A stretch of 64,000 nt of DNA from Branchiostoma lanceolatum (lineage: Eukaryota; Chordata; Leptocardii; Amphioxiformes; Branchiostomatidae): positions 10,538,596 through 10,602,595 of the forward strand of contig NC_089740.1 in the NCBI RefSeq assembly GCF_035083965.1, read 5' to 3'. A program made the position numbers and the translations under genes. The notes under the pieces were generated by a model. The model was given only the letters and a program-made list of their open reading frames with translations. It did no database searches and had not been told where the DNA came from. Positions 12,349-33,652 of this stretch are shown piece by piece (position 1 is the stretch's first letter; the number at the start of each line of letters is the position of its first letter).

Positions 12349-15259
12349 ATGGCGAACATTACAGGTGTTACGGACGTGTCTTATTTTCACGACAACGACG
12401 ACATCTTCGGGAACCGGAGCTTCTTCACGTTCTTAAGCGAGTTCCGACGATCCCAGCCCGAACTCTTGTACGTGGAGGCGACCATACTCATCGTCATTAT
12501 GGTAAGGTGGTTTGTCGTGATTTCTGTACATTTCATTTTACACTTCAGTTTTAACCTGGTGCATTGGAGACGCGAACGCCGTTCATTTGTTTTGAAAAAT
12601 TGAAGGAGTGACTGTTCAATGGTAAACAAGCGTCGTCCTATTCTGTACGCTTGTTCTTCATTCACTAGCTTGTGATAAGCAGCATCTGGATACAAAATAA
12701 ATAAAAAATATATTGATGGGAGTAAGGTCCGCGGTTGACCGATCGGCCATTGAGTTAGCCCTTTCACACAGGTCGTCGAATTTTAAAATCGCCAGAGACT
12801 TGAACGTGCCTTACACCTGGGAAGTTCCCCATCTCATTAGCTAAGGGACCTGTGAACATCGGCCGATCTCTTAAAGTCTCACAATTATCGAGAGAACACT
12901 GAGAACACCGGGAGTATACTTGCCGAAAATGTCATGTAGAGCTCCCAGGCTAATAGGACGATCGATTTTCGTCCTGCGTGACAGTTCAACCACTCTGTAC
13001 TTTGCACTTGTTTCATTGTTTTCTTACATAACACAAGCGTACTGGTGCCAAACAAACGCCAAAGCTGGTCTTTGTAACACACAACTCGTCTTGTCCAGGG
13101 CGTTATTTGTCCTCCTCTCCAATTTCAACATGCTTTAGAAATCAAAGGAACATTTTGTGACTTGGAACAAAAACAACTTTCATTTGCTCGTAAATCTTGG
13201 TCTTCCCTTAATTAAAAAATTTGTCACCTTTGTCATTAGGAAAAATACGCTCTACAAATTTGAAGTTTTATGGACTTACATGTCAATACCAATTCCCAGC
13301 TTAGTTGATTTTTAATTGAATAACGTGAAAGAAGTAAACCATGCACCATTTTACAATGTTTGCACACTGACAATGTTGTGTGGGTCTTTAATAAGTACAC
13401 GTCTCTTCTGATCGTCAAGTTTATCGCATTTGTATCGTGACTCATGAGAATTTCCCCGTGCATAACGCCAGTGATTTTTCAGCCTTAGTATCACATTCAG
13501 TGACACCAGTTTAGGTCATTTAGACAAATCCTGTGTTATCATATCAACAGTAACTATGCTCCAATATCAACAGTTCCATGTTAGGCGCGACACTGTGTCA
13601 ATGTTCATAACTGATCCAGGTCCGTTCAGCTGAGCAAATTAGTTGTCACCGAATGACAAAACTACCTCGCAGGTTAAACCAATAAAAAGTAAACAAATGC
13701 CCCTGCTAGCATGCATAGAAATATATACATCTATTAAGAAAACTAGAAATACGTTTCTGCATCAGCATATACGAAAAGATTCTCGTTTTATCATAATATA
13801 CTCGTATGTCGGGGATATGATTTGTAGGAATGAACCATACCATACGTGTCGTTATTGAGTACCGTTTATGTCAGGAAGATATAAGTTTGTCTATATTTCT
13901 AAATCAGTCACAGTTTTGGTGTTGAAGTTGACTTGTCAGAGTGATTTATAGCGATCTGGCAAAATTCCAAGATTGTGCCTTCATCAGTATCAAGTAACTC
14001 GGTCGTACGTTAGCGCCGTCTAGTAATCCATGAAGGTACTGCAGCCTATTTGGTGATTTTTCAGGGTTTGTTAGAATCATTTTTGTCCTAGTACCAATGT
14101 TGATATATGCAGCTATGAGATCATTGTGTCTCTCTTTTATATTTACATCCATTAAAGAAAATTCTACTCTTTAATTTTTAGAGTTCGTCTATCTCAAGTT
14201 TCGGCATGCTTATTGACAATTTTCACTTCAATGCCACAGATCGCTGCCTACGTCACCAACATCATCCTAGTCCTGGTCCTGACCCGAGACCGACAGATGC
14301 ACAACTGGACCAACTACCTGATCGTCCATCTGTGCTGCGTGGACATCCTTTTAGTCAGCGCTGCTCCTTTTATTGTTGCTGCACGGGTCACTCAAAGCTG
14401 GCCCATGGGCCCGGGTGTGTGTTACGGATTGATGTACACTATGACGCTGTCCGCTACTGTCACCATGTGGACCATGGTTCTCATCAGTATCGAACGTTGC
14501 CACACAATCGTTAAACCATTCAAGAGAGGATGCATGTATGACAAGCGTCATTTCGCGGGGACGTTGGCAATAATTTGGGGAGCTTGCGGTCTGTATTGCT
14601 TGCCGATTGGACTATTTTTCAAAGAAAGGACTTTTACTTTAGTTGGTGATGACGTCATAATTTGCACGCTGGTGTGGCCTGCTGTGGGGGCATCGTACGC
14701 TTTTACCATACCGACTCTCGTTCTTACGTTTTGTGTCCCCCTGGTCATCATTAGCGTCAACTATTACAGAGTGTTCAAAACGTTTTGGAAATCGCGTGCT
14801 CGGCTGTCAAAGACAAGAGACATGCCACTCCCTTCGCTATCCACCGACGGTCCGTCCAAAGGAAATGACTCTCCAGCGAGCGTTGGGAAACACAAAAGAA
14901 CTTTGCCTCGTCAAACAAGCCATGCAAACGTTGCGACTTCGAACAGAAGCAGCAGAGTCAAAGCTACAGCGTTCTCGGGAAAGGACGTCCGAGTTGTAAA
15001 GGTCCTGGTCATGCTAGTGGTGGCGTTCTTCATCATGTGGCTTCCGGTTATGATCATGATTCTCCTTATACAACTAGACGGAAATAATTTCCAGGAACAC
15101 GTTCTGAAATCCCATCATTTTGTGGCTGTTCTGAGTTTCACTCTCTGCAACGCCATCCTCAATCCTGTGTTCTACGGACTTCTTAATCAGAGCAATAGAA
15201 ATGGCGTGCGGAAGTTATTCAGCAGGTCAAGGTCGCGCAGTAGGTCTCATCGGACGTAG
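12349..15259 (+). CDS. Rhodopsin-class GPCR resembling free fatty acid receptor 4 (GPR120)
   Basis: Two exons, 12349-12501 and 14240-15259, phase 0, 390 residues. Exon 1 gives an N-glycosylatable N-terminus and the start of TM1 (LLYVEATILIVIM). Exon 2 gives TM1 Asn58 (AAYVTNI), TM2 (LIVHLCCVDILLVSAAPFIV), TM3 ending in ERC at the E/DRY site, TM4, an ECL2 stretch DVIICTLVWP that matches FFAR4's ISICTLIWP, TM5, a long basic third loop, TM6 (FFIMWLPVMIMILLI) and TM7 with NPVFY. The tail is short and Arg/Ser-rich (SRSRSRSRSH), without a palmitoylation Cys. Arg100 in AARVTQSW aligns with FFAR4 Arg99, which mutagenesis ties to binding the fatty-acid carboxylate. The intron within TM1 is 1.7 kb. The start is the first ATG of exon 1 (GACATGGCG). 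Other lipid or peptide receptors of this class remain possible, but FFAR4 is the closest I can name. Confidence 0.85.
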
Positions 15260-15656: not shown

Positions 15657-17860
15657 ATACCAGCTATCTAAAGGTTTATGACTATGACATATTTTAATTT
15701 CTTATAATTATAATTAATCATACTTTGTCAGCTTTCAAACCCTGAATGTTTAATTTGGACTTTCCGCATTTCCTGACCGGTACCTACAACACACTGCTAT
15801 CAGACGATTGTCTTCACTTTAATCCCCACTACTAATTTTCTCGGTATGGTAATGCATAATAAAAACATTGCCTGTCGTAAAAACGACTCTTCTTTATTGT
15901 TCTTTTAATCGGACCCCATAAAATGTTGTTTACAATGATTATAAATTCCGATACTGGTACAGACAGGCACAGAGAGCCTCAGTCATTGAATAATTCACAA
16001 TAGACACGTCAGAAAATACCGGATGGAAACAACCAATCAAAAGAATGTTCCAGGAATTCTTCACTCACACTACCCGAGCTGTTACCTTATTTGGTCGAGT
16101 TTCCTTGGTTACGTTATGACGTTATTATTTAAGTTCGTGCTGGAAATGAAATACCACACGCACTATTCTTTATACTAGTAGATGAGAGAACCCGGCCTTA
16201 CATGGTACGGTGACCTTGTGCGCCAGCAGTAATTCACGACAAAGAACTGGTACAGCGACGCGAGAGAACGGTACACATCCAGAAAACAAGACGTCGTACG
16301 ACGAAGTCGTACGCCGTTGTCACAAGTCCAGAAATATTCCCATTGTGCATGGGGTCTAGTTCACGACAGAGCACGAGCCAGCCGCCCTCCCCACAGCAGA
16401 ATGGGAAACCTGGCGACCACTAGAACGTCACTGGTGCTGCTGTGGGGTCTGTGCTACTGTCTGCCGGGTGCATCGGTGACGTCAGGTGTGTAACTAGCTA
16501 GTTATCCATGAAAATTAGTGGAATACTGCAGTCATAAAGGTGTGGTGTTAGACACAATTATTTCGTCAGCCATTTAAGCTATTTTGTAGTCTTACTTTAG
16601 GATGTCGACTTTTGATAAACCCAGAAACAGACAACGTAACTTTGCACGGACTGCGCTCTGTGTACTTTGCAGAAGTTCTGCTTTAAAACTATAAGCCATA
16701 TGCACAATACACACAGCATACTTTGCGATGATAGTTTTCAAGGTTCATATATGGCAAAACGGCTGCTAAGGGGCTTAGATGAGCGGTTATGTGTCATTAT
16801 AGGTGTGACGTAGCCTTAAAACAGCACTCCAAGCCACGCCTTTCTCCGCTGATTGAGTCTGCAAAAGTATGTGGTAAACAGGGTTCCGTGATTCTAGATT
16901 TCAACGAGAACATGCAATACTGGGCATTACTTCCTTCATTGATGAACCTACTACGTATGCTCATCCCCACATACTTTTTTGTTACTCCCCTCTTGTTATC
17001 GTCAAATACTGACAGAAAGATGCATAAAGCCATAAATGACCCAAAACGTGTGCCGTGAGAGAGGACCTCACCACCAGAACGCACACGGCAGAAATTTGTA
17101 CCAGCTATCGAAACGTTTATAACTATGAAGCATTGAATTTCTTAATCATCCTTTGCCAGCCTTCAAACCCTGAGATGTTTAATTTGGACAATCCTATACC
17201 GGTACCTACAACATACTGGTATCAGAAGATTTTCTTCATTTTTACCCCTACTACTATGTTTTCTCGGTAGGGTAAAGCATAATAAAAAGATCGCATGTTG
17301 CAAAAACGAATCATCTTCATTTTCTTTTAAATGGACCCCATAAAATGTTGTTTACAATGATTAGAAATTCCGAAACTGGTACCGACAGGCACAGAGAGCC
17401 TCAGTCATTGAATAATTCACAATAGACGCGTCAGAAAATACCGCATGGAAACAACCAATCAAACAACAACACGCAGCATTCTTTGCGATGATAGTTTTCA
17501 AGGTTCATATATGGCAAAACGGCTGCTAATTATAAGGGGCTTAGATGAATGGTTATGTGTCATTTTAGGAGTGATGTAGCCTTAAAACAGCACTCCAAGC
17601 CACACCTTTCTCCGCTGATTGAGTCTGCAAAGGTATGTGGTAAACAGCGTTGCGTGATTCTAGATTTCACGTGGTAATTGGCATTACTTCCTCCATTGAT
17701 GAACCTACTACGTATTCTCATCCCCACATACTTTTTTGTTACTCCCCTCTTGTTATCGTCAAATACTGAAAAAAAAGATGCATAAAGTCATAAATGACCC
17801 AAAACGTGTGCCGTGAGAGAGGACTTCACCACCAAAACGCACACGGCAGAAATTAGAAAA
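15657..17860 (+). repeat. Duplicated block A-exon1-B / A'-B' around the first exon of the lectin GPCR
   Basis: A (15657-16044) repeats as A' (17097-17466), with landmarks TACCAGCTAT, CGGTACCTACAACA, CCCATAAAATGTTGTTTACA, CAGGCACAGAGAGCCTCAGT and GAAACAACCAATCAAA. B (16710-17096) repeats as B' (17469-17860), with landmarks TTTGCGATGATAGTTTTCAA, TATGGCAAAACGGCTGCTAA and CCGTGAGAGAGGAC. In the first unit a ~660-bp segment (16045-16709) carrying exon 1 of the GPCR separates A from B; in the second unit A' and B' abut. Confidence 0.8.
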
Positions 17861-20800
17861 CGGTTTTGAAAGTCAATTCATTTAGTCATTTCTATACATG
17901 ATTAGTTCAAACAACAATACCACAATGCATAGCGACGTCCATCATGCAAATATACGACGTCGTTGTGATGTGAGAACTCACTGAAAATCCTCGCCAGAAT
18001 TTTTATAGGCTCGCGAAACTACTAGCGGGAATCATCGTACGGCACGTTTTTGCACGGGTTTAAAATGCTCAAAGTATGAAGTTATTACGTAAATGTGCTA
18101 AATTATGTTAGTAAATGTTACTACCATAAAGATTTCAGCATTTTTCATTTCCATATCTTAGGCCCTAATTTTGCTTTGGTTTCCTTTAACGAAGTTCTTT
18201 TCACACAACCATGCGATATATACCGCGTCATTTAGCGGTTGGAAGTAGTACCAGCAATGTTGCCATGAGGAAGATATCAGAAGGACTACCGAAACATTGT
18301 TGTTGCATACCTTGTACTGACTAAGTTAGCAACTTTCCTTGCTGTTTCTGCAGCAGGGTAATTCTTTTACAGGGAGGGGTTGCTAACCCTTCCCCTTCAA
18401 CAAGCACAGATGGTTATCTTCTGTGTATGTTTGACTTCCAGTTCGTTTCGATCGAGCTGGCTTAACGATTCTGCATCCTCGTCCCCAGGTGCATGGCTGT
18501 CACAGGATCCGTCATGGGTTGTGGACTCCGCCGGCACACCGTTTGTTGGGCGCGTAATGACATATGACGCCGCAAAATCCTTGGATGGGGACACTGGGAC
18601 CTACTGGAACCCGATAGTAAGCCCTACACCAATGAACTACAACGACTGGTCCATCACACTTGACCTGCGAGTGCCCCGAACCCTGACCCGCATCGCAGTT
18701 AACAGCTTCGGAGACAACACCCATGACATCGCAGCCTTCACGTTGCAGAAGTCGCAGGTTGGGAGTCCGTACAACTGGGAGGACGCCGTGTATGTCACTA
18801 ACGTGCAGGGAGGGACGGACCAGCGCCAGGAGTTCGGCGGTTTCCAGGGAACAGCGCGGTACTGGAGGTTCGTGGTCACGCTGACCCACTCGGGCTGGCA
18901 GCCATGGCTCAGGGAACTGAACCTTTACGGAATCACACCAGGTAAGGGGAAATGTGCCATGTCATTCGTGTTTTGTAACCTATAAAAGGATATTCTCAGG
19001 ATCGGGGCCTCCTAGTTACCAGCTAATTGGAACCAGGAACTCAACTGTGCGGCCGCTACCAGTTGCAACGTTGAGCTACAGCGGCCTGGCCGAAATATTG
19101 GCTGGTAAACATCTCCTGGTTGTGACGGTTAAAAAAACTTGTTAACGATGCGTGACTCACGCAGATACTTACACATACACATACATCTACTAATAATATT
19201 CTTCTCAGCTGGTCCAGATCTAGATATCGTCGATAATGTTGCCTTGGGGAAGACGTCGTTCCAAACAAGCACACTTGACGGGACGGACGGTGTCGCCAGC
19301 CTTGCCGTAGACGGGTTCACCAACACCTACATATACGGCGGCATTGGGACCTGTACACACACCCGGGAAGAAGCTGATCCCAGCTGGTGGGTGGATCTTG
19401 GCCAATCGTATGTGATTAGCAGGTACGTATGACTGTAAATGTAGAAATGTTAGCGGTGGCTTCATGTTCGCGGGGGTTTTCACGTACGGCGACCGGTTCA
19501 CCGCGAACTTAAAACCACCGCGAACATTTTTGTCTAATACTGTAGCAGTATTGGATGACAGCGCTGTCGCGAACCGCGAACACTCCATTTCCTCTTAGCG
19601 CGGAATTAAAACCACGCGAACTTAAGTGCATTTACTGTATTGACACAAATTGCAGGTATTTAGTAGAAGATGACATATTCTAATATCTTATGTCATGCTC
19701 AAATATTGGTGAACAGTGAATTAAGAAAACTTCTGTGAAGTCGTTTGTTTCAAGAGAAGAGAAGAGTGTAGATTTACATTAGGTCCAGCACTTTGTTTTC
19801 TTTTTGAAATATACATGTACTGCAGTTAGCTCTCTTTAAATTGCCTGCGCCAACTTTCATCACGACTTGTGTTAGCGCCACCAGGGTTTTTCTTAAAATT
19901 TAGTTGGCAACGACTTTTCAATACTGAAGTAAGATAATCATTTTGACATCGCTTTTATTATTGACAATACTCGTATCTACAGAGTGGTCATCTTCAACCG
20001 CCAGGACTGTTGTTCGGAACGACTCAACCCATTTAATATCCACATCGGGGATTCCGACCAGATCACCTCGAACCCAAAGTGTGGAGGTGATCATGAAATT
20101 GACGTGTATCAGCCGTCACTTTCCATCCCGTGTCAGGGGATGGCGGGGCGATACGTGGGCGTGCGTCTTGCTGGTCCCTCTCGAGTCCTGACCCTGTGCG
20201 AAGTTCAAATTTTCAGAGGTAGGTGTTTGCAAAGAAGGTAATATTTAAGGTGCCGTTTGTACGTACGTTTGTTGGAAAAAACGAAGACCAAGATGGATAT
20301 TTGCTGCGGGTTTGTGCTGTACATAGCGAAACGTCTGGTTCTGTAGAGCAGAGAGTAAGTGCTGTAGGTTTGTTGTAGGCAAATAAAGATTATAGGAAGA
20401 GAGACATCTTGCAATCATATGCATTTTTCATCTACCAGACTGTCAGGTGGGAGATGGGTTTTCCTACCGTGGAATAGTCTCTGTGACCATGTCAGGCTGG
20501 ACGTGTCAACGCTGGGACAGTCAGACACCACACGAACACACCGAGACGCCGGCTAATGATCCGGCATCCGGGCTGGAGCAGAACTACTGCCGGAATCCGG
20601 ACGGTAAATCCGGAGTTTGGTGCTACACTACGCAGCCTGCCGTGAGATGGGAGTTTTGTGACGTACCAGTCTGTGGTGAGGCCTGCATTTGTTTCCTACG
20701 ATTTTGGACAGACAATGACGACGTGGCACTGCACTCAATTTTTCATACCTTATTTCAACAGTGCCACGTACAGAGAACATTATACCCATTTCTATACCTG

Positions 20801-23800
20801 GGTGGGGTGAGAAAAGTCAGCCTGCACTTTTACGCTTATTTTATGGCACTTTTTTTTGCGACCCACCCACAAAATCAATCATGGTGCTCATTGTACAAAG
20901 GTATGATCATAACAAATAAAGTATCATTTGAAAAGAAAATATATACAAGCATTTCAATGATGGTATATAACATGATGCAGAATTATTCAAAACAAAGGAC
21001 ATGTAATCATAGAAAGCTTCGGCAGTTTCTTCTTCTTCAAGCTACCCACATTAATAGACTTGGTGCTAAACTTATGAACGGAATATCATTATGCATTGTA
21101 AAGACCTTTTGACTTGAGTATATAGAGATGACATCTGTGCGCGAATCAATTTTCGTTCGTCTCCAAAAAAAGGTTTCGACCATACTGTAAATCGTACAAA
21201 GCAGCTGTAAAATAGCTAATACATGCCGTGAATTGCAAAAAAGATATTCGGGAAACGGATAGTAATGTCGTAGTGTGTCAAAGCAAATTCTAGAGTCAAA
21301 GAAGACGTGAAAGAAAATAAAATCTATTATTCGGTAGACCATGGTTTCTCATTTATGTTTTATTCTATTTTCTCTGATAGCTGATAAGCGGCTGCGCGTC
21401 GATAGTCGTTGCGGACAAAAGTGGCCTTCAGCGGACGGTTACCCCGCTGAATGTGACCCTTACGGTCCCAGCCCATGCTGCGACGCCACCCTAGGCCTAC
21501 TTGAGAAGTGTGGTCTTTCTCCACCTCAATGTTACTGTCTGGATTGTGTCGACTACAGAAACATAGGTTTGTAAAGCCCCTATCTCACTAGACCCGCGAC
21601 AAGTTGGCGACTTCGCTGCGACCGCCGAGCGCTCAACGAATTTCAGCAATAAAGGACGAATCTTTTTACGCTTTGTTTGTTTACTTTTCTTTTTAGTAAC
21701 AGTTGTTTTGACCTGATATTCCCATTATAAAGTCAAGGGTAACACAACTCCAATTTAGGATGCAGCGAGGTCGCCAACTTGTCGCGTGTCCATGCGGTGA
21801 TACAGGGGCTTGAATAATACACACACAAATGTATACGTACAAAAATTCGTGTAACGGCTGTGAAATTTGAGCCAAATACAATTAGTGGTAATTATTTGGG
21901 AATGATGACGTCATGCAGCTATAGATTGCGCGCTCCGTTTGAACCAGAGAACCAGAGAGTTGGAGACAAGACGACGTGTAATAGTATCTCATCTCATCTT
22001 ATCTTAACAAATCAACTTGCTGAGGTCACGATAAGCAGATGGTGCATATGAATATTTGTAATGATGCATTTTGATTCCATTCCTTTCTTTCTTTGTCTCA
22101 GTCAAAGTCAACAACGAAATCTGTCCAAATGGAATCATCATTGACAAGGCCCAAGCATGTGATGGCAGAGACGACTGTGGAGACGGTACAGACGAACAAA
22201 ACTGCTGTAAGTAGAAACGCGGAAAAGCAGTGCTTGGTATGCATATGATCTCGGGAATGCAGATGTAAATACAATGACTGTGTTGGTTAGGTCTCCGGCA
22301 CTCTTGATCGATTCGAATAATGTATATAATTTGGTGTGTTTGCGTTTGATATTTTTTAACAACCCATTGTAAAAACTGTACATAATTCAGAGAGGCACCG
22401 ACCATTCCTTGTGAATGTAAGTTTGTCTTTCAAATAGAATAGAATAAATAAAAAATGAAATAGATGAAATTGCTTCAATATGTAGGACTCGTGTTTTACT
22501 ATTGAATAAAATGTAGCTTCCTCCATCCAAGTGTGTTATTCAACACAATTTCAGGTAATTACTTGCGGTTGACCTGCTACTTACAAAGAATGTACCATCA
22601 TGGTAGCTTGCAGTTGTTGTCCTTTGACTTTTGAAATTTTGAAATCTGTGAGGCCTTCAAATTTGGCATAAGATAGAGTTATAAACATTCAACGTTTAAA
22701 AAGCAGCAACGGAATGGGTACCTGTTGATTGCAATTATTAGTGCTCTAGGCGCGGCAATACCTTCAAGGCATTTTCCCAAGCAAAAACTTTGTAAGATGT
22801 TTTTATCAAGCTTACATCCGCCTATCGGTGTACGTTTATCACCTACTGGTAAACAATGTAGAAACATGAAGTCTCAATGCTTTAACACAGGTGAGCGGCA
22901 AGGCATGAAAAGCTGCACCAACGGACAATGCATCCTTTTATCCGAGGTCTGTGACAGGAATAGCGACTGCGTGGATGGCAGTGACGAGCTATCTTGTCGT
23001 GAGTCTAGTCGATACCCTTTTTCTTGTATTGTAGCACTTTCTACCTTCGGCTACCCTTTTTTTACCGTTTGCCAAAATGTTTTAAAGTGCTGAAGATAAG
23101 GGGTTGCACTAAGTCATCATTTTTTAAACTTGATGGGTCTTCTTTCTGTCTCTCTTTACAATCCAGAAAATCCCTTGCTGTTAACTAGAACAACTGAATA
23201 ACTGACTTTGTGACCCTCAGCTCTTTCGGCCTGTCACAATGGAGGCCTGTTCCATCCGGCTACTCGATGTGACGGTAGAGATGACTGTGGGGACAACAGT
23301 GATGAGGAAAACTGCGGTAGGTCTCCAGAGATGTATACACAGATAAGCCACTTTAATAACATCTCATATCAATATGTCAATATATCTCATATCGTTACTT
23401 CCGACAGGTGGTTGCCCGGCGACGGCTGACTGTTCAATGCAATATATTTGTTACGAAGAGTACAAGACACAATAACGATGTGCCGTAAAACAAGACTGAA
23501 CCTGAAGACCTTTTAACAACTTACAATTAACTTGCAATAGCTGTGGATATGATGTACAAGAGAATTAGAATCTACAACGTAACACTTCATGTCCACAGAC
23601 TGTTACTACCTACAGGACAAAGGCGTGAGTTACAGGGGCCGTGCAAACCGGGATGGATTCTGTCAGCTCTGGACATCTCAGTACCCCCACGCCCATAACC
23701 ACACTCCCCAGGCCTACCCATCGGCAGGGCTGGAGGGGAACTACTGTAGGAACCCGGACGGGAAGAACAGACCGTGGTGTTACACCGTCGACCCTTTCAA

Positions 23801-26800
23801 CACGTGGATGTACTGCGACGAGGTCTTCGCCTGTGACGGTATGATCAGCACTTCATGAGATGCTCAATTGGATGCTCATTTGCATAATTGTCAACTCATT
23901 ATGTCAACCATCAATTAAGTTGCCTACATACTGAAAATGACGACTATCTGTCAATCACTTCCTGAGTTTGTCATGTTTCAATTTTTTTAAACAAAAATGC
24001 CCCATGGCAGGAGCAAGGGTGCTAATTTCATTCAATGGCATACATGATCTGTTTCCCATTTTCAGCCGTACCGACAAGTTGCTTCTTCACCAACGATAAC
24101 GGAAGAAGCTACGCAGGGCGCATAGATAGGTAAGATGAAGGCTGGGATGTTTTTCTATAGTAGTTCCCCCGGTAGACAGTTACACAGAGCATTGCACACA
24201 AAGCTTTGTTAAATCATATCATCTTTACTACGAAGAACCCTGGTTACATGTAAGGTTTTGATAGCCGGGGTGCCGCCCTACTCCTTGTTAATCTTCCGCT
24301 AGTTTGCCAGCGCGCGGGAAGTATGGATGCAGCGGAAAACTAACTTGGACACCCAGTATATGGCTTTGACTTCTACCAAGAGCAGATGAACTTACTGCCA
24401 TTTTAGGAATCATAGCATTTTCGCCTTAAATGTACCTGCAAATAAGATTTTGCTTTGCCAACGGGCGCTTAACAAAAACTTGGTTAGGACAAGTGCGAGT
24501 GTTGCTTTATACATAAAAGTTGTTTGAAATGAAAGTTTGTAGAATGGATTCAGAACATCATATAGAACATTTCCCTAACATTGACAAACATTCATTGTTT
24601 GCTGGTTTATCGTCTTTGGCAGACCCCACCTCGTGGGACTATATCCCTAAGCAGTGTTCCGGCCAAGGAATATCCTGTGAGGGAAAATGCGGATGGAGTT
24701 ACAGTGCTGTTTTTTCGTGCCAGTGCGACCAGGACTGCAGCTTTTACGGCGACTGCTGTAGAGACTTTCAGTACGTAGTTTTCAAACTTTTAAGGTATTG
24801 TAGATAGTTAAACTTTGTAGCAAAAAATATAACAGTCCAACATGGTGGAACCTTACGGAGAGGATCCGCCCAAGGGGCCGCTCCCAGGCCTAGGTACTTA
24901 AACATAGAGGATATTTACAAATATAGATGTATATATATATATAGATAGATGTAGATACATGTAGATAGATAGAATATATATAGATATATAATATACAGAT
25001 ATAGAACATATTATATATGTATATATGTATACAGAAAGAGAGAGATTTAAGATAGATAAAGATAGATAGATTTTTGATTTTTGACGGCCCATCGTAGATT
25101 GATAAATATGCTGGTGTGTACAAAAGATTTTCTTTCATAGAAAATACAAAATGATTCTTTGTCCTCATAACAGAGAAGTGTGCAGCATCAACACGCCAAC
25201 TCAAACGTCATCGGATCATCACCATCAGAAGTGGAAGTGTCTGCAGGGCTATCACGACGGATATTCGTATTGGTTGGTTGCTGCCTGCCCGGACGACTGG
25301 TTGGATGGCGTCACAAGAGATCAGTGTTTGAAACAAGTTGATCCTTATGATCAGGACGAACTGCTCTACCGGATGCCCGTCTCTTACAAAAATCAAGTCT
25401 CCTACAGAAACATCTTCTGTGCTTTGTGTAATAATGTAAGTATGGAAGATGTAGCTACGTGGAAAGCCGAACGCGTGTGCACTGGGTTGACCAATTCCTC
25501 TGCACATCTTTCTCCAGCTACACAATCATACAACAACATCATCACCAACATCGAAACCACGTATGAATATTGTGCTGGAAGTGAAATGCTGGAATTCGAT
25601 CCTGAATATGCGAAGGCAAGGCGATGTGTTCCCCATGAGGTCGATGTGTCGAATGTAAATTGCAATGTAACTGCCTGCGTGTCCTACCAGCTGTTACTGA
25701 GCAAGAGTGATACTAAGATCTACAAAAACATTCACTGTGCTCTTTGTGAAGGACTTTCCATTAAGGCAGCCACAAGTTTATATTGTGCCGGTGTGGGTAT
25801 CCGCACCAGTTTTTGCTTCCCATACTGTATCTCATTAACTCATCTGTTTAACTTTAATGCTGATGAGAGTCCTGAAAACAGCCCCGAACCTTGCCCTCCC
25901 AACTCTCTGTACGACCCATTTGTAGACTCGTGCCGACCTTTCTCATCCATGCTCATAAGTAACGGGTCAATGAACCAAACATTCCATTTCCAAAACTGCA
26001 GCAGGCCCATTCTGAATTTCACTTCCGAAGAGTTTGAAATCCTTCCCAATGGTAGTGTCCACCTGGTCAGCTCTAACGTGTCCTGCCCAGCCGAGCAGGT
26101 GGCCATTCTGAACACAACAGCATCGATCTGCGGGGACTGCCTACTCGAGTATTTTTCAAACGACACGCGCGGAGGACAACTAACCGGAGATGCTGACCAG
26201 AGTTGGTTAACCCTGGGTCTTGTAATAGTGTCTGACGTAGCCGTGTTTGGTTTCATAGTTCATAATGTAAGGACTGGCCAGTGGAAAAAAGTCCCGACCA
26301 GGCTGAAGGTTCAGATGATGTCATGCATGGCAGCTGCTGAATCGATGTTTGTGGTACGTGGGTTTGTTCCTCAAGGACCCATCTGCACAGCCTATGCCAT
26401 ACTTCTGCACTACCTTATGCTGACGGCATTCACGTCAATGAACGCACTATCTGTAGATCTCTTTCTTACCTTTCGTGATGCTCAAGAAAGAGCGGAACTG
26501 TACAAGTATCTCTTGTACACCTGGCTGGTGCCAGTGCCTGTTGTTCTTATCACAATGATTGTGGAATTCGGTAGTTCTGTCTGGGTGGGTTACGAAGAGC
26601 ACTGTTGGATCGGGAATCCAGCAGCCAGTCTGGTGTCATTTGGGGTTCCTGTCTTGTGTGCCCTTATGGTCAATGCTGTCTTCATCATTCTTGTCTTGCT
26701 GGCAATACGGAAGTCATTTCAGATAGCCAACGCTGCTATGTCGCGCTCAAACAGCAGCAAGGCCTGGGTGTACATGCGTATCTCGTTCCTGACGGGGTTC

Positions 26801-28009
26801 ACCTGGATTTTGGGATTCATTTTCCCTTTCGCCAACAGCAGCGGTCTTGAGTACATCTTTATTGTGCTGAATGCTTCTCAAGGCCTACTGCTGACACTAC
26901 TCCTGACATTAACGGGGACGGTGGTGCAGGAATGGAAGTCCGCGATCTGGGTACGTCTTGGTCTGGCTGAATCTCACCAGAACAATGGACAAACCGCCGC
27001 TACCAGCACCAGCAACCAGCGGGCAACCAGAGGGAAAACTGAGGTAACGGCAGGCAGCAGCGGCTCTGCTACAGAAATACCCATGAAAGTTATGACCGAT
27101 GTAGAAGGGAACAGGGCACGCCTTCATCTGGGTGAGCCTAATCAGGACAATGGACGAGCTGCCACTGCCAGCGACCATCAGGCCAGCGGAGGGGAGACTG
27201 AGGTAACGGCAGGTGGAACCAGCTCTGCTACAGACAAATCCATGACAACATTGGCCGATGTACATGTGGAGGAAAACATGCAACCTAGTCAACTAGACGA
27301 AGCTCCTGGGGAAAATGGGCAAACTAACACTGCTGGCAACCATCAGACCAGCGGAGGGAAGACTGAGGTAATGGCAGGCGGAACCAGCTCTGCTACAGAG
27401 AAACCCATGACAACTTTGGCCGATGTACATGTGGAGGGAAACATGGAGCCTACTCAACTCGATGAAGGTTGTCAGGACAATGGGCAAACCAACACTGCTG
27501 GCAACCAGCAGACCAGTAAAACCGGCCCTACTATAGATATATCAGTGAAAACTCTGGCTGATGTACATGTGGAGGAGAACGGGGTAGCCATTCAACTCAA
27601 TGAAGGTCGTCAGGACAACGGAAAAACCAGCACTGCTGGCAACCGGCAGACCACCGCAGGGGGAACTGAGGTAAGGGCTGATGGAACTGACTCAGCTACA
27701 GGCATGACAACCTTGGCTGATAAACATATGGAGGAGATCAGGGCACCTCCTCAGCTGGACGACGCTCGTCAGGAAAATGGGCGAGCCGCTTCTGTTGGCA
27801 ACCAGGAGACAACCGCAGCTGGAACGGAGGCAATGGAAGGGGACACCGACACTGCAAGCAACTCACAGATCCTCGTGTGTGGAGTTGGGGCAACAGCAAG
27901 CGGCACCGACGTCGCCATTGAGATACCCATGAAGACTTTCGTCGATGTTGAAGAAAACAAGACTGAAGAAAGTCGTTCGGTCTGCGCTTCAGATCGAGAG
28001 GAAAATTAG
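16401..28009 (+). CDS. Multidomain lectin GPCR: discoidin, F-type lectin, kringles, LDLa, somatomedin B and a class B-type 7TM
   Basis: Twelve exons: 16401-16485 (signal peptide), 18489-18941, 19209-19422, 19983-20218, 20439-20675, 21381-21566, 22102-22206, 22750-22998, 23221-23316, 23599-23838, 24623-24770, 25174-28009. Phases agree throughout; total 5085 nt, 1694 residues. Order: F5/8 C domain; F-type lectin with the complete fucose motif HX26RXDX4R (His of CTHTREEADP, then RQDCCSER); kringle 1; a Cys-rich hevein-like module (CDPYGPSPCCD ... CVDYR); LDLa (CDGRDDCGDGTDEQNC), second LDLa, third four-Cys LDLa; kringle 2; somatomedin B (CDQDC ... DCCRDF). The last exon adds two CALC repeats (YRNIFCALCNN, YKNIHCALCEG), seven helices from residue ~1094 to ~1342 (TM3 Cys, ECL2 HCWIGNP, TM6 FTWILGF, TM7 NASQGLLL) and a ~350-residue tail. 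No GPS cleavage motif was seen, so it is nearer Methuselah-type receptors than classical adhesion GPCRs. Almost all module borders are phase 1. Ligand unknown; a fucosylated glycan is a reasonable inference. Linking exon 1 rests on phase and the signal peptide only. Confidence 0.85.
18305..18415. repeat. Fragment of a dispersed repeat (SINE body)
   Basis: TTAGCAACTTTCCTTGCTGT ... GCAGCAGGG ... ACAGGGAGGGGTTGCTAACCCTTCCCC closely matches 40215-40290. It lies just upstream of the discoidin exon and accounts for the extra open frame before that exon. Confidence 0.5.
18985..19105 (-). repeat. tRNA-derived SINE head (fragment)
   Basis: On the minus strand it reads TGTAGCTCAACGTTGCAACT, GGTAGCGGCCGCACAGTTGA, GTTCCTGGTTCC. 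This is an A-box-like start shared with the SINE at 40388-40450. It lies in the intron between the discoidin and lectin exons. Confidence 0.5.
19432..19645. repeat. MITE-like element with TACTGTA/TTTACAGT-type ends
   Basis: The ends GACTGTAAATG and CATTTACTGTA are inverted. The interior is full of CGCGAAC and TTCGCGG words (TTCACCGCGAACTTAAAACC, CCGCGAACA). It lies within the intron that splits the lectin domain. It resembles the element at 60783-61010 in its ends and its GTGAACTTA-type words. Confidence 0.55.
21574..21811. repeat. MITE-like element, ~50-bp terminal inverted repeats
   Basis: The left end AGCCCCTATCTCACTAGAC, then CGCGACAAGTTGGCGAC and CGCTGCGA, is mirrored by the right end TCGCAGCG-like block, GTCGCCAACTTGTCGCG and GTGATACAGGGGCT. 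Intronic, non-coding. Confidence 0.75.
24066..24129 (+). pseudogene. Orphan first half of a third kringle (64-bp exon-like relic)
   Basis: Between good splice sites (TTTTCAG and AG/GTAAGA) lies AVPTSCFFTNDNGRSYAGRIDR, the N-terminal loop of a kringle. It would leave the frame in phase 2, whereas the next exon (24623) needs phase 1. Splicing the two gives a stop within about nine codons. I find no second kringle half in 24130-24622. It is either a decayed kringle or an alternatively spliced poison exon; it is omitted from the main model. Confidence 0.6.
24917..25065. repeat. (GATA/TATA)n microsatellite
   Basis: Runs of TATATATA and ATAGATAGAT over ~150 bp in the last intron of the lectin GPCR. 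The minus-strand open frame of alternating Ile and Tyr is a by-product. Confidence 0.85.
26957..27975 (+). repeat. Coding repeat: six ~46-57-residue units in the cytoplasmic tail of the lectin GPCR
   Basis: Each unit starts L(D/N/G)E or similar, then (Q/E)(D/N)NG(Q/R/K), AGN(H/Q/R)Q, an optional TEV(T/M/R)A, SAT and (T/K)TLADVHVEEN. Units begin at LGLAESHQNN, LGEPNQDNGR, LDEAPGENGQ, LDEGCQDNGQ, LNEGRQDNGK and LDDARQENGR. Unit 4 lacks the TEV..SAT middle. The repeat is low-complexity and hydrophilic, with Ser/Thr that could be phosphorylated. Confidence 0.85.
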
Positions 28010-30875
28010 GCTAGTTTCTGAATGCGGTACGGGAAGGAAACTATCAGCGCTATGAAGACAAAGTGCTTGACATGTCGACATGACGGGACCAACAACAAAT
28101 CACAAAATAGTTGCCTTACATAACCAACTTTGCTTCTCTCCAACGCCTGAATTTGTCTCTTATAAACTCATATATTGTGTAACATTATATGAGTTTATCA
28201 TAAATGTGTTGTTTGCATATGCTTGGTTGAGCCTTGAAGTCTATGCAGTTGCATGTCACTTACAATTTACCCCATTACTTTTTCCTTTAACTATCCAATA
28301 TGGTGGACAATACACCATGAGTGCAAACCCTATGACGCATACTTCAAAGGGAATTTTTCGCTCCCGGTAGAGTGTTATACTTGACTGAACTGTGAACAAC
28401 GAGCATTGATATGCCATTGTGACTCTCACCAGTATCTAATGTGCTACTTCGAAACTATCATTACCCACTTCGTTACAAGTAATTGACAAACACACTTTAA
28501 AAAGGGTCATGAAAACGAGATTGTTGACCCTGGGTACTTTTCACCTTCTCTTATTACGGCGCGTTTGTCTTTTGTTTGCCCAACACCTAGCAACAGCTGT
28601 GAATGTTGGCACAGCCCGAATTTGTAGATAAGGCTGTAAATAATCTGCTCTGCCTCGGAAAAAATTATCATATTAGAAAGTCGGGTAAATGGTCCATGCA
28701 AATGGCAGAACTATATCATACTTTAGTTAAAAAGAAAAAGATTTATACCATACTGATCAATCATATGTTATGAAGGAGTCCATATAGTACATTCAAAAGT
28801 GGCCAAAAACGTCCACTATATCATCATTAGTTATCTTTTTAGTGTGTCCAATCACATAGGCATCATATTAAGTACGTTAGTGATTGTTTAATAAGCTATC
28901 TACAGCATCAAGAAACTTTTTCTATTAGCCAGTTGCTTTATTTAGTGTTCTGCCATAAACAGTATGATAAAGATGTAGGTGTGTGTATATGTTTGAGATA
29001 AGTGTCAAAGACCGAGGGAATTATGCGTAACATGAGAAATGACAGACCAAAAGTAGTAATAACCTTTTAGATAAAACATAATACACAGCAACAGTTGCAA
29101 ATATTATCGTAACCATCAAATATCACTTCATGACTATTAATGTGTAATATATATTAAGAATGTGCGTTGTTGTAGGATATAGATTATCATTTATAATGTT
29201 TATGTGTAATGCATGTTATCTACTGTGATATGGAATCTAGTGTCATCTCATCAATGGTCGACTGCTAAAGAGTGTCAACGCGTGACGTCATAGCCGACAT
29301 GTTGTTTGGTGAGGTCAAAACGTGACGTTACAGCCGCCATATTCGTAAGTGACGTCAGACCCAAGATATTGCATGTGCATCTTGTCAAATGTCATAGCGC
29401 TCCTGAAGCTTGTACAGATTCGAATTTAACTGCCAACTTTTAAGTTAAACCATCCAACATGGCGGGCAATGCTTACGTCATTGTCAAGTGAGTCCAGACG
29501 CCCTATAGATGTTGACCACGTGTCATCTGTACACAGCGGGAATATAATCTTTTCAGTTAAGTGTAAAATTGGACGTCACTAGTATGTATCAAGATACCAC
29601 TATGAGGAAAGGGGGGGCCATATAATGCACTACGAGTGTAACGAGCAAGGAGACAGAAAAAACAAACAAATATGCAACATGCGAAAAATCTAGTGATGTA
29701 AAATTCAAGGATATCAACTATGCAAATGTAAAGATACAAAATGGTGAGCCCTTGCGTAACACGATAACACAATGTATTTTATTTCACAAATTATACAGTC
29801 GTCTTCACCAAACAGATTATTTTGGCCACCCTCGGCCGGTACCCCTTAATACCTTGTGACCCGCTTGCAATTGGTTCATAGAGTACAAGCTAGCCCCCAT
29901 ATCATGTATCAAATATTTGTGATTTATCATGCACTATTCCCTGTATGATGCTACATGATTTTATAAGCTTTTGAGCAAAATATTATGGAATCACATGCTA
30001 AAAGCAATTGATTGTAATGTTTTGGGCACATGTTCAATTTGTAAACAACAGTACTTGATGTAGAATACATAGCATGACGTCAATTTCTTTGAAATTCTTG
30101 CACTTTTTTTCGTCGTGATTTTATCGCCTTTTTCCAGAGCAAAGTGTATATGTTGTTCGCTTAAACTTTTCTGGTGATTTAAAAATCTTCCTCAGTCAAT
30201 GGCTTGTCCAAATCAACCTGATATCTTATTTTAAATTACCTTATTAGGGAGTAAACTTATGGTTAGAAGAAGGTGCTTGCAGCATTTTAACAGAAATATT
30301 CCACGTCGCTGGCTAAAAGCTAACAGACATCAATTTCCCCAAAGAAAGATACATAGAAAAGGCAACTTATCACTGATCACATTTTTATTGCTTTCTTGCT
30401 GTCATACACAAATAAGGACGGTGTAACACGTTTTGTACATGATTGCGGGGACTGGTATAACGTTAAAACTTCGCTTGTCGTGACTTCCTGTCATTCGTTA
30501 AGTTTTAGGGGAAAGAGGCTCCTCTATTCATAGAAATGAAGACAAAAGGCGTGACATATTTCTATAAGGATTAATCATAAAAATAATACTTATGAATAGA
30601 AAAAAACTCTTTCACAAATTTTGCATCAAACACACACATGATATTAAAAAAATCACAAATACAAATCGCTATCAGAATCGTAAACACGTTTTCAAAATAT
30701 TTATAAACATGGTGCCTACAGACGTAATGCATTGGTTTTCATATGCAGCTCTATCGGTCTGGATTAATTGGTTCTACTTATCGGTCAGACTAATAAGGAT
30801 CTACTCTGTACAATTATTACGCTTCATAACCACATGGGAAGATTGTCTACTGACCTACTTTGATTTGTCCCATGT
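28010..30875. other. Gene desert: 3' UTR of the lectin GPCR followed by intergenic AT-rich DNA
   Basis: No exon with plausible coding and splice signals on either strand. CG-containing CGTGACGTCA/GTGACGTCA words cluster at 29280-29360. No poly(A) signal could be assigned with confidence. Confidence 0.45.
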
Positions 30876-31309: not shown

Positions 31310-33503
31310 TCATTCACACCCCTGTTTTTCATACGCAGGAGATTCTTTGATCTCCGTCTTTGTTTGGGTGAGCATATAGCAGTCAACACATGGGTTCTCG
31401 ATCTCACTCTTCTTTCCTCCTGTGACGAGCAGATCTTGTCGGAGAACAGCAAGATCCTGGATCTGCTTGGCTCCCTCCTTAGGTCGTGGACTCCCCTGCT
31501 CTAGTGCTCTTCTTCCCAGCCCGCCGCTGTAGGTCACCAGTACAGATGTTGACCAGCGCCGCTTTCTGTTTTCCTGCCCGTATTGAGGGTTGTCGAAAAC
31601 CTCGGCGTGTTCTGTATCTGACCGCTGTTGTTTCACGTCCCCTTCGCCGTATGTGTGTTCTGTATCTGGCTTAACGTTCCCCTGGCCATATTGAGGGTTG
31701 TGGAAAATCTCCGTTTGCCTCGCCCGCCCTTGAGGTTTTTTGTCGCTGGCGGACGGTAAGGATGCAACATCCTTGTCACGAATTACGTCATAGTGGGGGT
31801 CAAGTTCACGAGTCGTCAGGTTGCCGGGCTGCTCGGGTCTTTTGTGACGGATGAGCCAACCTACCAGGAGGCCGACCAGAAGGCTAGCGCTGCCGAAGGT
31901 CATCCCCGTGTAGATCAAGTGTAACATGCAAGGATACTGGCGTGCAGCTGGCAGTAAGGAGGGTGAAGTTTCCATCGGCATCTTCTTCGTACTTGTGACG
32001 AACCCTGGAAAATCTCTGGACGACCTATTTTCATTTTCTTCTCTTCCGTCAACAGTTGTCAAAGAACGGGAGTGGTTTGCTCTTCTTACGTTGGTCAAAG
32101 ACAAACTCAGGTTGACTGGGAAACTACCCACCGGGTACGTTATGACACAGCGATAAGCACCCTCCGTCCATTGCATGAGGGCCTTCCGGCTCATGAGTAG
32201 CTTGTATGTCGACTTGCCCATGAAGTTGAGGGTGAAACATTGTGCTGGCTTGCTAGAACATTCTGTTCCGAATGAGAGAGAATGACCTGCTGGAGTCACG
32301 TCATGTTCCCAGCTGATGGTGATGCCGCTGTTAGACGTGTTGGATGATGCGCTGGTGTTGTTTCCTTCTGGGCCGACCCAGCTGATGTCCGGCTGCTGCT
32401 CCCAGTAGACCTCACACAGGAGAGTGGTTCCGTTGTCAGTCCGGGAAACCTTGGCTATAGGGATTGGACACGACATGTCTTCCCTGGCCACCTGTGAGAT
32501 TTTCTTCCCGGAGAGATGTGGAGGGTAAGTGCAGTAGAGGTTGTCTGTTCTCTCGAGAACGGCCATCCCCTCAGCAGTCTTCAAGCTGTTCAGCGCACAG
32601 GTGCACCGAAACGGGTTTCCCCAAGCGAAGCACAGGTGCACCGAAACGGGTTTCCCCAAGCGAAGCACAGGTGCACCGAAACGGGTTTCCCCAAGCGAAA
32701 ACAAACTTCCCGCGAAGAGCCATGATCGTTTCGTGCCTTATAGTGGGTAGGAGGTTACTATTCAGATGAACAGTCACCCTTGGAGGTAAGATCTGTAACC
32801 ACCCCGGGCTAAGGGTCTGGAGCATATTGTGGCTGAGGTCAAGACGCTTTCTTATTGGTATCAGGTCAAAAGCGTTGGCTGAGACGTTGGATATCTCGTT
32901 GTGGTTCAAGTCTAGTTCCAACAGGCTGGATAGTCCTTCAAAGAACCAAGCCTCGATTGAGCAAATCCTGTTGTGACTCATGTCCAGAGATTGGAGATTT
33001 TCGAGGGACCGGAATGCTCCCCTCTTGACGTTTTTGATCTCGTTTCGACACAGTTGTAGTTTCTCCAAGGCCTCAAGACCTTCAAACCAGATTCCAACGA
33101 CCTGTACAGAGTTTCCATTCAGTGACAGCAGGCGAAGAGAAGCGAACGTTGCAAATGCCCCATTCCTAATGTCCCGAATGTGCCCACCACTCAGCAAAAG
33201 GCTCTCCAACATAGGCAGGGTTGGAAGGTGATTTAATGTTCCGTTGCTATCATAGTGTCCTATCAGCTTCAGGACATGTACTCCATCCTGTAAGCAGGAA
33301 CTAAGTTCCTGGTTGGAACAATTCGATCCGGTCACGTTGCAGTCAACACGCTGGTGACACGATTCTGCACGCTCCTGACCTCTATAGGGGTTGCCGCACC
33401 CGATCTTGTGTCTTCTTGGACAAAGTCGTTCACAAGACGGGCAAGCCTGCGACGAACCCAGCATGAGCAACACGACAAAGATGGATGTCTTTGGTCGGGC
33501 CAT
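31310..33503 (-). CDS. Intronless LRR-Ig transmembrane receptor, reading frame broken by a 35-bp triplication
   Basis: The first frame (33503-32571) has a signal peptide (FVVLLMLGSSQA), a Cys-rich LRRNT and about six leucine-rich repeats (LRLLSLNGNSV, LEKLQLCRNEI, LQSLDMSHNRI, LLELDLNHNEI, KRLDLSHNML), then enters the LRRCT at NPFRCTCA. The second frame (32704-31310) resumes in the LRRCT (ALNSLKTAEGMAVLERTDNL), followed by an Ig-like domain (LLCEVYW ... GAYRCVITYP), a Ser/Thr-rich stalk, a transmembrane helix (GSASLLVGLLVGWLI) and a ~160-residue tail with two NPQY motifs plus DPHYDVI and HTYGEG. Tandem 35-bp copies at 32596-32697 shift the frame, so the assembled allele encodes a truncated, secreted-type LRR protein ending HLCAEQLEDC. 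Intact codon structure on both sides argues for a recent event or an assembly error. LRR-Ig receptors are expanded in lancelets, and an immune or recognition role is plausible. Confidence 0.85.
32596..32697. repeat. 35-bp tandem repeat, ~2.9 exact copies, inside the LRR-Ig coding sequence
   Basis: The word GTGCACCGAAACGGG recurs at 32601, 32636 and 32671, exactly 35 bp apart; each unit ends CCCCAAGCGAAG. The copies are identical. Two extra copies add 70 bp, so the downstream frame shifts by one. One or four copies would keep the LRR and Ig parts in one frame. Confidence 0.9.
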
Positions 33504-33652
33504 ATTGCCGAGAATCTACAACCCTACATTTTCACCATTACCAAGAAGCCAGAACATATAACTATAAATAAACAAATACAAATACCAACAAGTGTATGTA
33601 TGTAAGTATGTCTTTGCTGTGACCTGTTTTCAGTTGTACTCAGAGTCTCAAA

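Follow-up and report, generated by a model that had tools for sequence, protein, structure and literature searches.

The 64,000-nucleotide window of Branchiostoma lanceolatum DNA analysed here (contig NC_089740.1; all positions are those of the window) contains a putative receptor gene on the forward strand. Rebuilt from the sequence, the gene runs from an ATG at 16401 to a stop codon ending at 28009 in 12 exons, which give a single in-frame model whose sole stop is terminal. The predicted protein comprises, in this order, a leader-like start, an F5/8C domain, an F-type lectin, a kringle, a cysteine-rich (hevein-like) module, three LDLa repeats, a second kringle, a somatomedin B (SMB) domain, a stalk with two CALC motifs, a seven-transmembrane (7TM) region of the 7tm_2 family and a tail. 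On balance, and with modest confidence, we suggest that it represents a single gene and that its product is a plasma-membrane receptor of many domains, from the class-B-like kringle/SMB group of invertebrates, acting by the mechanism proposed below. The exons of the model are the following (phases are given as entry-exit; splice sites as percentiles explained below):

16401..16485, forward strand: exon 1, start codon and signal-peptide-like leader of 28 amino acids, phase 0 in and 1 out; donor CAG/GTGTGT at the 0.994 percentile
18489..18941, forward strand: exon 2, F5/8 type C (discoidin-like) domain, phase 1-1; Pfam PF00754 at 1.1e-09 on the exon 1-2 product
19209..19422, forward strand: exon 3, first half of the F-type lectin, phase 1-2
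19983..20218, forward strand: exon 4, second half of the F-type lectin, phase 2-1
20439..20675, forward strand: exon 5, kringle 1, phase 1-1; Pfam match at amino acids 331-408, profile positions 1-79 of 79
21381..21566, forward strand: exon 6, hevein-like cysteine-rich module, phase 1-1; PDB 4z8i and 4zxm (PGRP3) at 9.9e-06 and 1.3e-05
22102..22206, forward strand: exon 7, LDLa 1, four-cysteine variant, phase 1-1; Pfam LDLa
22891..22998, forward strand: exon 8, LDLa 2, six cysteines, phase 1-1; best Pfam stretch at amino acids 506-541
23221..23316, forward strand: exon 9, LDLa 3, four-cysteine variant, phase 1-1; Pfam LDLa
23599..23838, forward strand: exon 10, kringle 2, phase 1-1; Pfam kringle at 5.7e-21 for the exon alone
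24623..24770, forward strand: exon 11, SMB domain through Cys 7, phase 1-2; rival donor at 24794
25174..28009, forward strand: exon 12, Cys 8 of the SMB domain, 22-cysteine stalk, two CALC motifs, seven helices, 349-amino-acid tail and stop; open frame 25106-28009

Pfam was run on the joined protein in its 1655-amino-acid version, with the exon 11 donor at 24794, and the families named here scored above their curated cut-offs: two kringles (1.2e-46), F5_F8_type_C_2 (3.7e-26), 7tm_2 (3.3e-18), F5_F8_type_C (6.4e-16), three LDLa (2.7e-11) and somatomedin B (9.6e-07). Together with the PDB matches, these results reproduce the domain order given in a preliminary description of this DNA, to which we add the hevein-like relative, the division of the SMB domain between its own exon and the 7TM exon, and a half-kringle exon. 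The same description had proposed 12 phase-consistent exons with a total length divisible by three, and this holds for the model with donor 24770 (4944 nucleotides (nt), 1647 amino acids) as well as for that with donor 24794 (4968 nt). The total of 5085 nt stated there was not reproduced; it differs from the rebuilt models by 141 or 117 nt, and it was given without exon boundaries.

The splice boundaries were picked by reading frame and consensus, and were scored with hand-entered frequency tables, donors being ranked as percentiles among all GT in 16000-30000. Nine of the 11 donors reached at least the 0.918 percentile, the remaining two standing at 0.819 and 0.785, and all 11 acceptors reached at least 0.869. 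The GC fraction was 0.46-0.60 in the exons versus 0.39 in the introns. Phase-1 introns flank every module of exons 2-10, the F-type lectin being formed by an exon pair of phases 1-2 and 2-1. These phase-1 flanks support an exon-shuffled build of the gene, as had been suggested earlier. A decayed or mis-assembled locus (a pseudogene or a merge) could account for the orphan half-kringle exon, the duplicated blocks around exon 1 and the two LDLa modules with four cysteines, but it appears very unlikely given 4944 nt without an internal stop, splice sites usable at all 11 introns and module cysteines that are mostly kept. A tblastn search for paralogs within the window gave matches at E<=1 that all fall in the exons of the gene itself and at their edges.

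The exon 1 leader has an 11-residue hydropathy maximum of 2.33 and was otherwise judged by eye; a 19-residue hydropathy scan did not flag it. Exon 2 showed weak similarity to PDB entries, with three matches at E<=1, including two galactose oxidases at 0.025; a match to a hexon protein (9.2e-04) looks spurious and was set aside. The second F5/8C-like domain, encoded by exons 3 and 4, is identified by its alignments as an F-type lectin. Six PDB entries match it at E<=0.01: two of them are Sm-hPAF, the platelet-aggregation factor of S. mitis, and the other four have names with lectin, FBP32 or fucolectin-related; F-type domains are tied to platelet-aggregating toxins of Streptococcus in a review (PMC5712786). 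The best match was FBP32, at 4.2e-45 for both its domains together and 3.1e-24 for the better single domain, and eel agglutinin 1k12 matched at 3.2e-17.

The fucose-binding motif H-x26-R-x-D-x4-R (with RQD) starts at amino acid 230 and is spread over exons 3 and 4. Its residues align ungapped with His52, Arg79, Asp81 and Arg86 of eel lectin 1k12 and with the adjacent cysteines. The text of the above review prints the spacing from H to R as x24, and the residue numbers 52 and 79 given there correspond to x26 (PMC5712786). The His-Arg-Arg triad, the Asp and the adjacent Cys pair of the F-type lectins (eel agglutinin 1K12 and striped bass FBP32) align here too. The domain differs from these lectins in that it lies inside a putative receptor, in an Ile at the position of Phe45, and in the cation motif h2DGx (x being small and hydrophilic), which here reads AVDGF, so that h2DG is kept and the last residue is Phe.

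The best PDB matches of kringle 1 were plasminogen and HGF. In both kringles, the loop between NPD and WC reads NPDGK and does not contain the acidic pair DxD/DxE. This pair marks lysine-binding kringles, and NPDGK thus predicts no ordinary lysine binding. In plasminogen, which was aligned with kringle 1 only, kringle 4 has NPDADK and kringle 3 has NPDGK.

Judging from its sequence, the cysteine-rich module of exon 6 is hevein-like and nearest to amphioxus PGRP3 (4z8i/4zxm): 23 of 53 residues are identical, and all eight cysteines align in the four-disulfide hevein-like pattern. Exon 6 had four PDB matches at E<=10, those besides the PGRP3 entries standing at 0.33 and 1.1, and no Pfam match. 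The N-terminal domain of PGRP3 is described as binding chitin, an ability abolished by a double change of Trp53 and Trp55 (PMC4610682). In a gapped alignment, the chitin contacts Ser51, Trp53, Trp55 and His62 are replaced in exon 6 by D, L, K and Q, with no Trp there; chitin binding in the manner of PGRP3 is therefore not predicted for this module. The cysteine pattern is thus common to exon 6 and the PGRP3 domain (4Z8I; PMC4610682), whereas the chitin-contact residues are those of PGRP3 alone. A structure prediction for exon 6 alone, with one sequence in the alignment, gave a mean predicted local distance difference test score (pLDDT) of 43.8, and the model was unusable. As for the LDLa repeats, the first and third have four instead of six cysteines, as though one disulfide pair had been lost.

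With the preferred donor 24770, the SMB domain extends across the last intron, reads CCRDFQEVC over it and aligns ungapped with the SMB domains of vitronectin and EndoU through Cys 8, and both the eight SMB cysteines and the CC-x6-C ending are present. The Pfam SMB score is 41.4 bits with this donor versus 35.3 bits with donor 24794, which sits 24 nt downstream, keeps the frame equally and shifts the eighth cysteine 14 residues on. When donor 24770 is joined to exon 12, the last SMB cysteine is therefore encoded by the 7TM exon. A third donor, 24774 (phase 0), was ruled out, since the chosen acceptor of exon 12 requires phase 2. The intron between the SMB and 7TM exons also carries an AT-rich repeat tract at 24917-25031.

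The stalk (amino acids 704-1044) contains 22 cysteines and the two CALC motifs. The preliminary description had listed two CALC repeats, and they do lie in a common 27-residue core with an alignment score of 57, which none of 1000 shuffles reached (mean 24.8, maximum 52); the limits of the stretches compared were chosen by hand, and the local alignment stops at this core. The stalk had no match in Pfam, PDB (E<=10) or NCBIfam. The following 259-amino-acid helical piece alone matched 7tm_2 at 6.9e-20. At E<=0.1, the 7TM region had 22 PDB matches, of which 21 belong to adhesion G protein-coupled receptors (GPCRs) and the last, at 0.061, to the protein dip1. No GPS or GAIN family was found by Pfam at E<=10 in the whole protein or in the 345-amino-acid stalk, nor was there a Pfam match to HRM or Methuselah_N at E<=10, although the HMMER filters remove most matches above about 0.1 and thereby limit these negatives. 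When viral contigs were scanned for sequences related to the 7TM exon, three pattern matches and no relative came up. The cytoplasmic tail is repetitive, with five TLADVH-like units counted by a pattern of our own and the following feature:

27163..27516, forward strand: tandem repeat in the cytoplasmic tail, 165-bp unit, 2.1 copies, 87% matches, related units on both sides

One further exon lies outside the main model, in the intron between exons 10 and 11:

24066..24129, forward strand: half-kringle exon, 21 amino acids, phase 1-2; acceptor at the 0.989 and donor at the 0.987 percentile

Its product resembles the beginning of kringle 2 (score 49, reached by 0 of 2000 shuffles); against the start of kringle 1, the score was 20, attained by 650 of 2000 shuffles. 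The exon alone has no Pfam match, and no second kringle half was seen by eye in the three frames of the intron that follows. An origin as a DNA-level copy of the kringle 2 exon was rejected, the best local match being seven bases. The SMB and half-kringle exons are both of phase 1-2 and hence interchangeable: swapping the half-kringle for exon 11 keeps the frame and gives a product of 1619 amino acids, while including both leads to a stop at amino acid 684. The half-kringle exon may be relic sequence, may be spliced in alternatively or may belong to an alternative first exon.

It is also possible that the locus holds two transcription units. One would encode a secreted protein with lectin, kringle and LDLa modules (exons 1-10 or 1-11), and the other a shorter receptor, SMB-7TM or half-kringle-7TM, from a start of its own. 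The boundaries of exons 2-10 are uniformly of phase 1, and a break among them would leave no trace in the frame. Unspliced, exon 10 reaches a stop 18 nt past its donor, and exon 11 does so at 24805-24807. Furthermore, ATG codons at 24035 and 24044 lead into the half-kringle exon, those at 24529 and 24544 into the SMB exon, and that at 25151 into the 7TM exon. However, the 11-residue hydropathy maxima of these five frames (1.69, 1.44, 1.07, 1.07 and 0.28, respectively) do not exceed 1.69 and are all below the 2.33 of the exon 1 leader. No AATAAA or ATTAAA begins between 22506 and 30642, and so none stands behind exon 10 or 11; this speaks weakly against a gene end there, as the end of the full-length model has no close one either. 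In addition, the SMB domain needs the 7TM exon when donor 24770 is used, and kringle and SMB domains are reported together in the account of an amphioxus receptor expansion (PMC2246102). Taken together, we consider two units rather unlikely and continue to prefer a single gene.

Several observations nevertheless weigh against a full-length receptor. Donor 24770 was picked to fit the SMB spacing and has a poor splice score, at the 0.785 percentile versus 0.905 for donor 24794. Unspliced exon 11 gains a cysteine and ends in ...LLRYCR before its stop, and an SMB-terminated product is conceivable. There are 14 ATG frames of at least 20 amino acids in 23839-25300, five of which enter downstream exons; a short receptor begun at the mildly hydrophobic ATG 24035 and read through the half-kringle exon would be possible, though it is not favoured. 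In the 7TM region, the Pfam 7tm_2 alignment begins only at profile position 75, and the hydropathy scan flags four of the seven helices, the other three having been placed by eye with peaks of 1.16, 1.48 and 1.51. The structure prediction for the stalk and 7TM region (one sequence in the alignment) had a mean pLDDT of 39.7 and was unusable.

Around exon 1, direct duplications were found in the region 15776-17871 (142 nt at 95% and 64 nt at 84%, each 1422 nt apart), and within the same region, intron 1 holds four further blocks of 89-97% spaced about 760 nt. Other features of the window are as follows:

14156-15259, forward strand: rhodopsin-type receptor (7tm_1, 5.1e-45) in an open frame that immediately precedes the receptor gene
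31310-33515, reverse strand: leucine-rich-repeat protein (LRR_8, 2.6e-29; LRRCT, 4.1e-04)
47937-49043, reverse strand: Tubulin/FtsZ GTPase-domain fragments in two frames (5.3e-12 and 9.9e-08, the latter just below the cut-off)

The leucine-rich-repeat protein is spread over two open frames, which differ in phase and overlap where a 35-bp unit is perfectly repeated three times in tandem (32595-32699). As this unit is not a multiple of three, there may be a frameshift or a fault in the assembly. The fragments at 47937-49043 are probably exons of a tubulin gene.

Based on the above features, we suggest the following mechanism for the putative receptor. Fucosylated glycans on microbes, neighbouring cells or matrix would be bound by the N-terminal F-type lectin next to the F5/8C domain, while the kringle, hevein-like, LDLa and SMB modules would serve as protein-binding spacers. 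Binding or pulling would then be relayed via the cysteine-rich CALC stalk to the seven helices, which may activate G proteins; the tethered agonist that GAIN releases in typical adhesion GPCRs would have no part in this. The preliminary description had called the protein a glycan-sensing receptor. This may hold for the F-type lectin, a candidate module in which the fucose triad is kept, but is not predicted for the hevein-like module without the chitin contacts or for the kringles with NPDGK; glycan sensing would rest on one module. Fucose sensing by this one module is plausible. A more specific scheme, in which a fucose-reading GPCR without a GAIN/GPS agonist has its membrane-proximal collar switched by alternative splicing between the SMB and half-kringle exons, is speculative and seems improbable; in such a collar, a cysteine from either exon could pair with the cysteine that starts the 7TM exon. 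A lectin receptor of this kind, in an animal related to the vertebrates, would convert the recognition of glycans straight into signalling by G proteins.

Alternatively, the product of the single gene may use its seven helices mainly as an anchor, as an adhesion or scavenger protein whose binding of glycan or matrix would lead to attachment or uptake and not to G-protein signalling. Most of the modules are of adhesion or scavenger type, and the tail is long and repeat-rich. The 7tm_2 similarity of the helical piece is, however, clear and goes beyond the needs of an anchor, and we regard this role as doubtful. Expression of the full-length receptor would link fucose recognition, usually described for soluble innate-immunity lectins, without intermediate to G-protein signalling, and would provide a clear case of exon shuffling in which phase-1 modules were placed on a class-B-like receptor without the usual activation domain. 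Since receptors of this general type have been described before, the gene is mainly of value as a well-defined test case.

The absence of a named vertebrate GPCR with this domain order, pointed out in the preliminary description, is no measure of novelty, since amphioxus GPCRs with kringle and SMB and with LDLa and discoidin domains were described in 2008 (PMC2246102). In that work on Branchiostoma floridae, Nordstrom et al. report ten Adhesion-type genes that form an expansion and contain kringle and SMB domains; LDLa and discoidin stand there in the list of N-terminal domains unique to amphioxus receptors. If the joined model is one transcript, kringle and SMB domains precede a class-B-like 7TM region here too, and the gene may be one of the ten. 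The passages on the expansion name no F-type lectin or hevein-like modules, and the figure key gives a galactose-binding lectin domain and discoidin (PMC2246102). Eukaryotic F-type lectin domains are described as combining with others, including FA58C, and B. floridae is cited for such mixed architectures (PMC5712786); kringle is among the domains listed for choanoflagellate adhesion GPCRs (PMC12716839).

The 7TM region had been assigned beforehand to a class B/Methuselah type. The class-B-like part of this assignment agrees with the 7tm_2 match and the predominance of adhesion GPCRs among the PDB matches, whereas Methuselah-type is only one possibility, with no match to Methuselah_N. Nordstrom et al. 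(2008) reported no Methuselah receptors in amphioxus (PMC2246102), while Friedrich and Jones (2016) placed lancelet receptors in the Methuselah/Methuselah-like (Mth/Mthl) family and described SMB domains in Mth-like receptors of B. floridae, S. kowalevskii and N. vectensis (PMC4768249). These receptors combine a 7tm_2-type region with SMB as found here, and Methuselah_N is confined to arthropods according to the same paper. Their family is defined by a 7TM tree, and the word kringle has 0 occurrences in the main text of that paper (PMC4768249). Secretin-family (class B1) receptors have an HRM domain, to which no match was found here. The nearest solved 7TM structures are those of the adhesion GPCRs ADGRE5 (2.3e-13) and ADGRL2 (1.1e-12), which share a long modular N-terminus with the predicted receptor; however, adhesion GPCRs carry GPS/GAIN, to neither of which the present protein gave a match. 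The gene model is real and most likely represents a single gene, predicted to encode an elaborate receptor of a group already known from invertebrates. As far as seen, several of its features appear to be new: the order of all the domains, the identification of hevein-like and F-type modules, the division of the SMB domain, and the half-kringle exon that could be swapped in frame.

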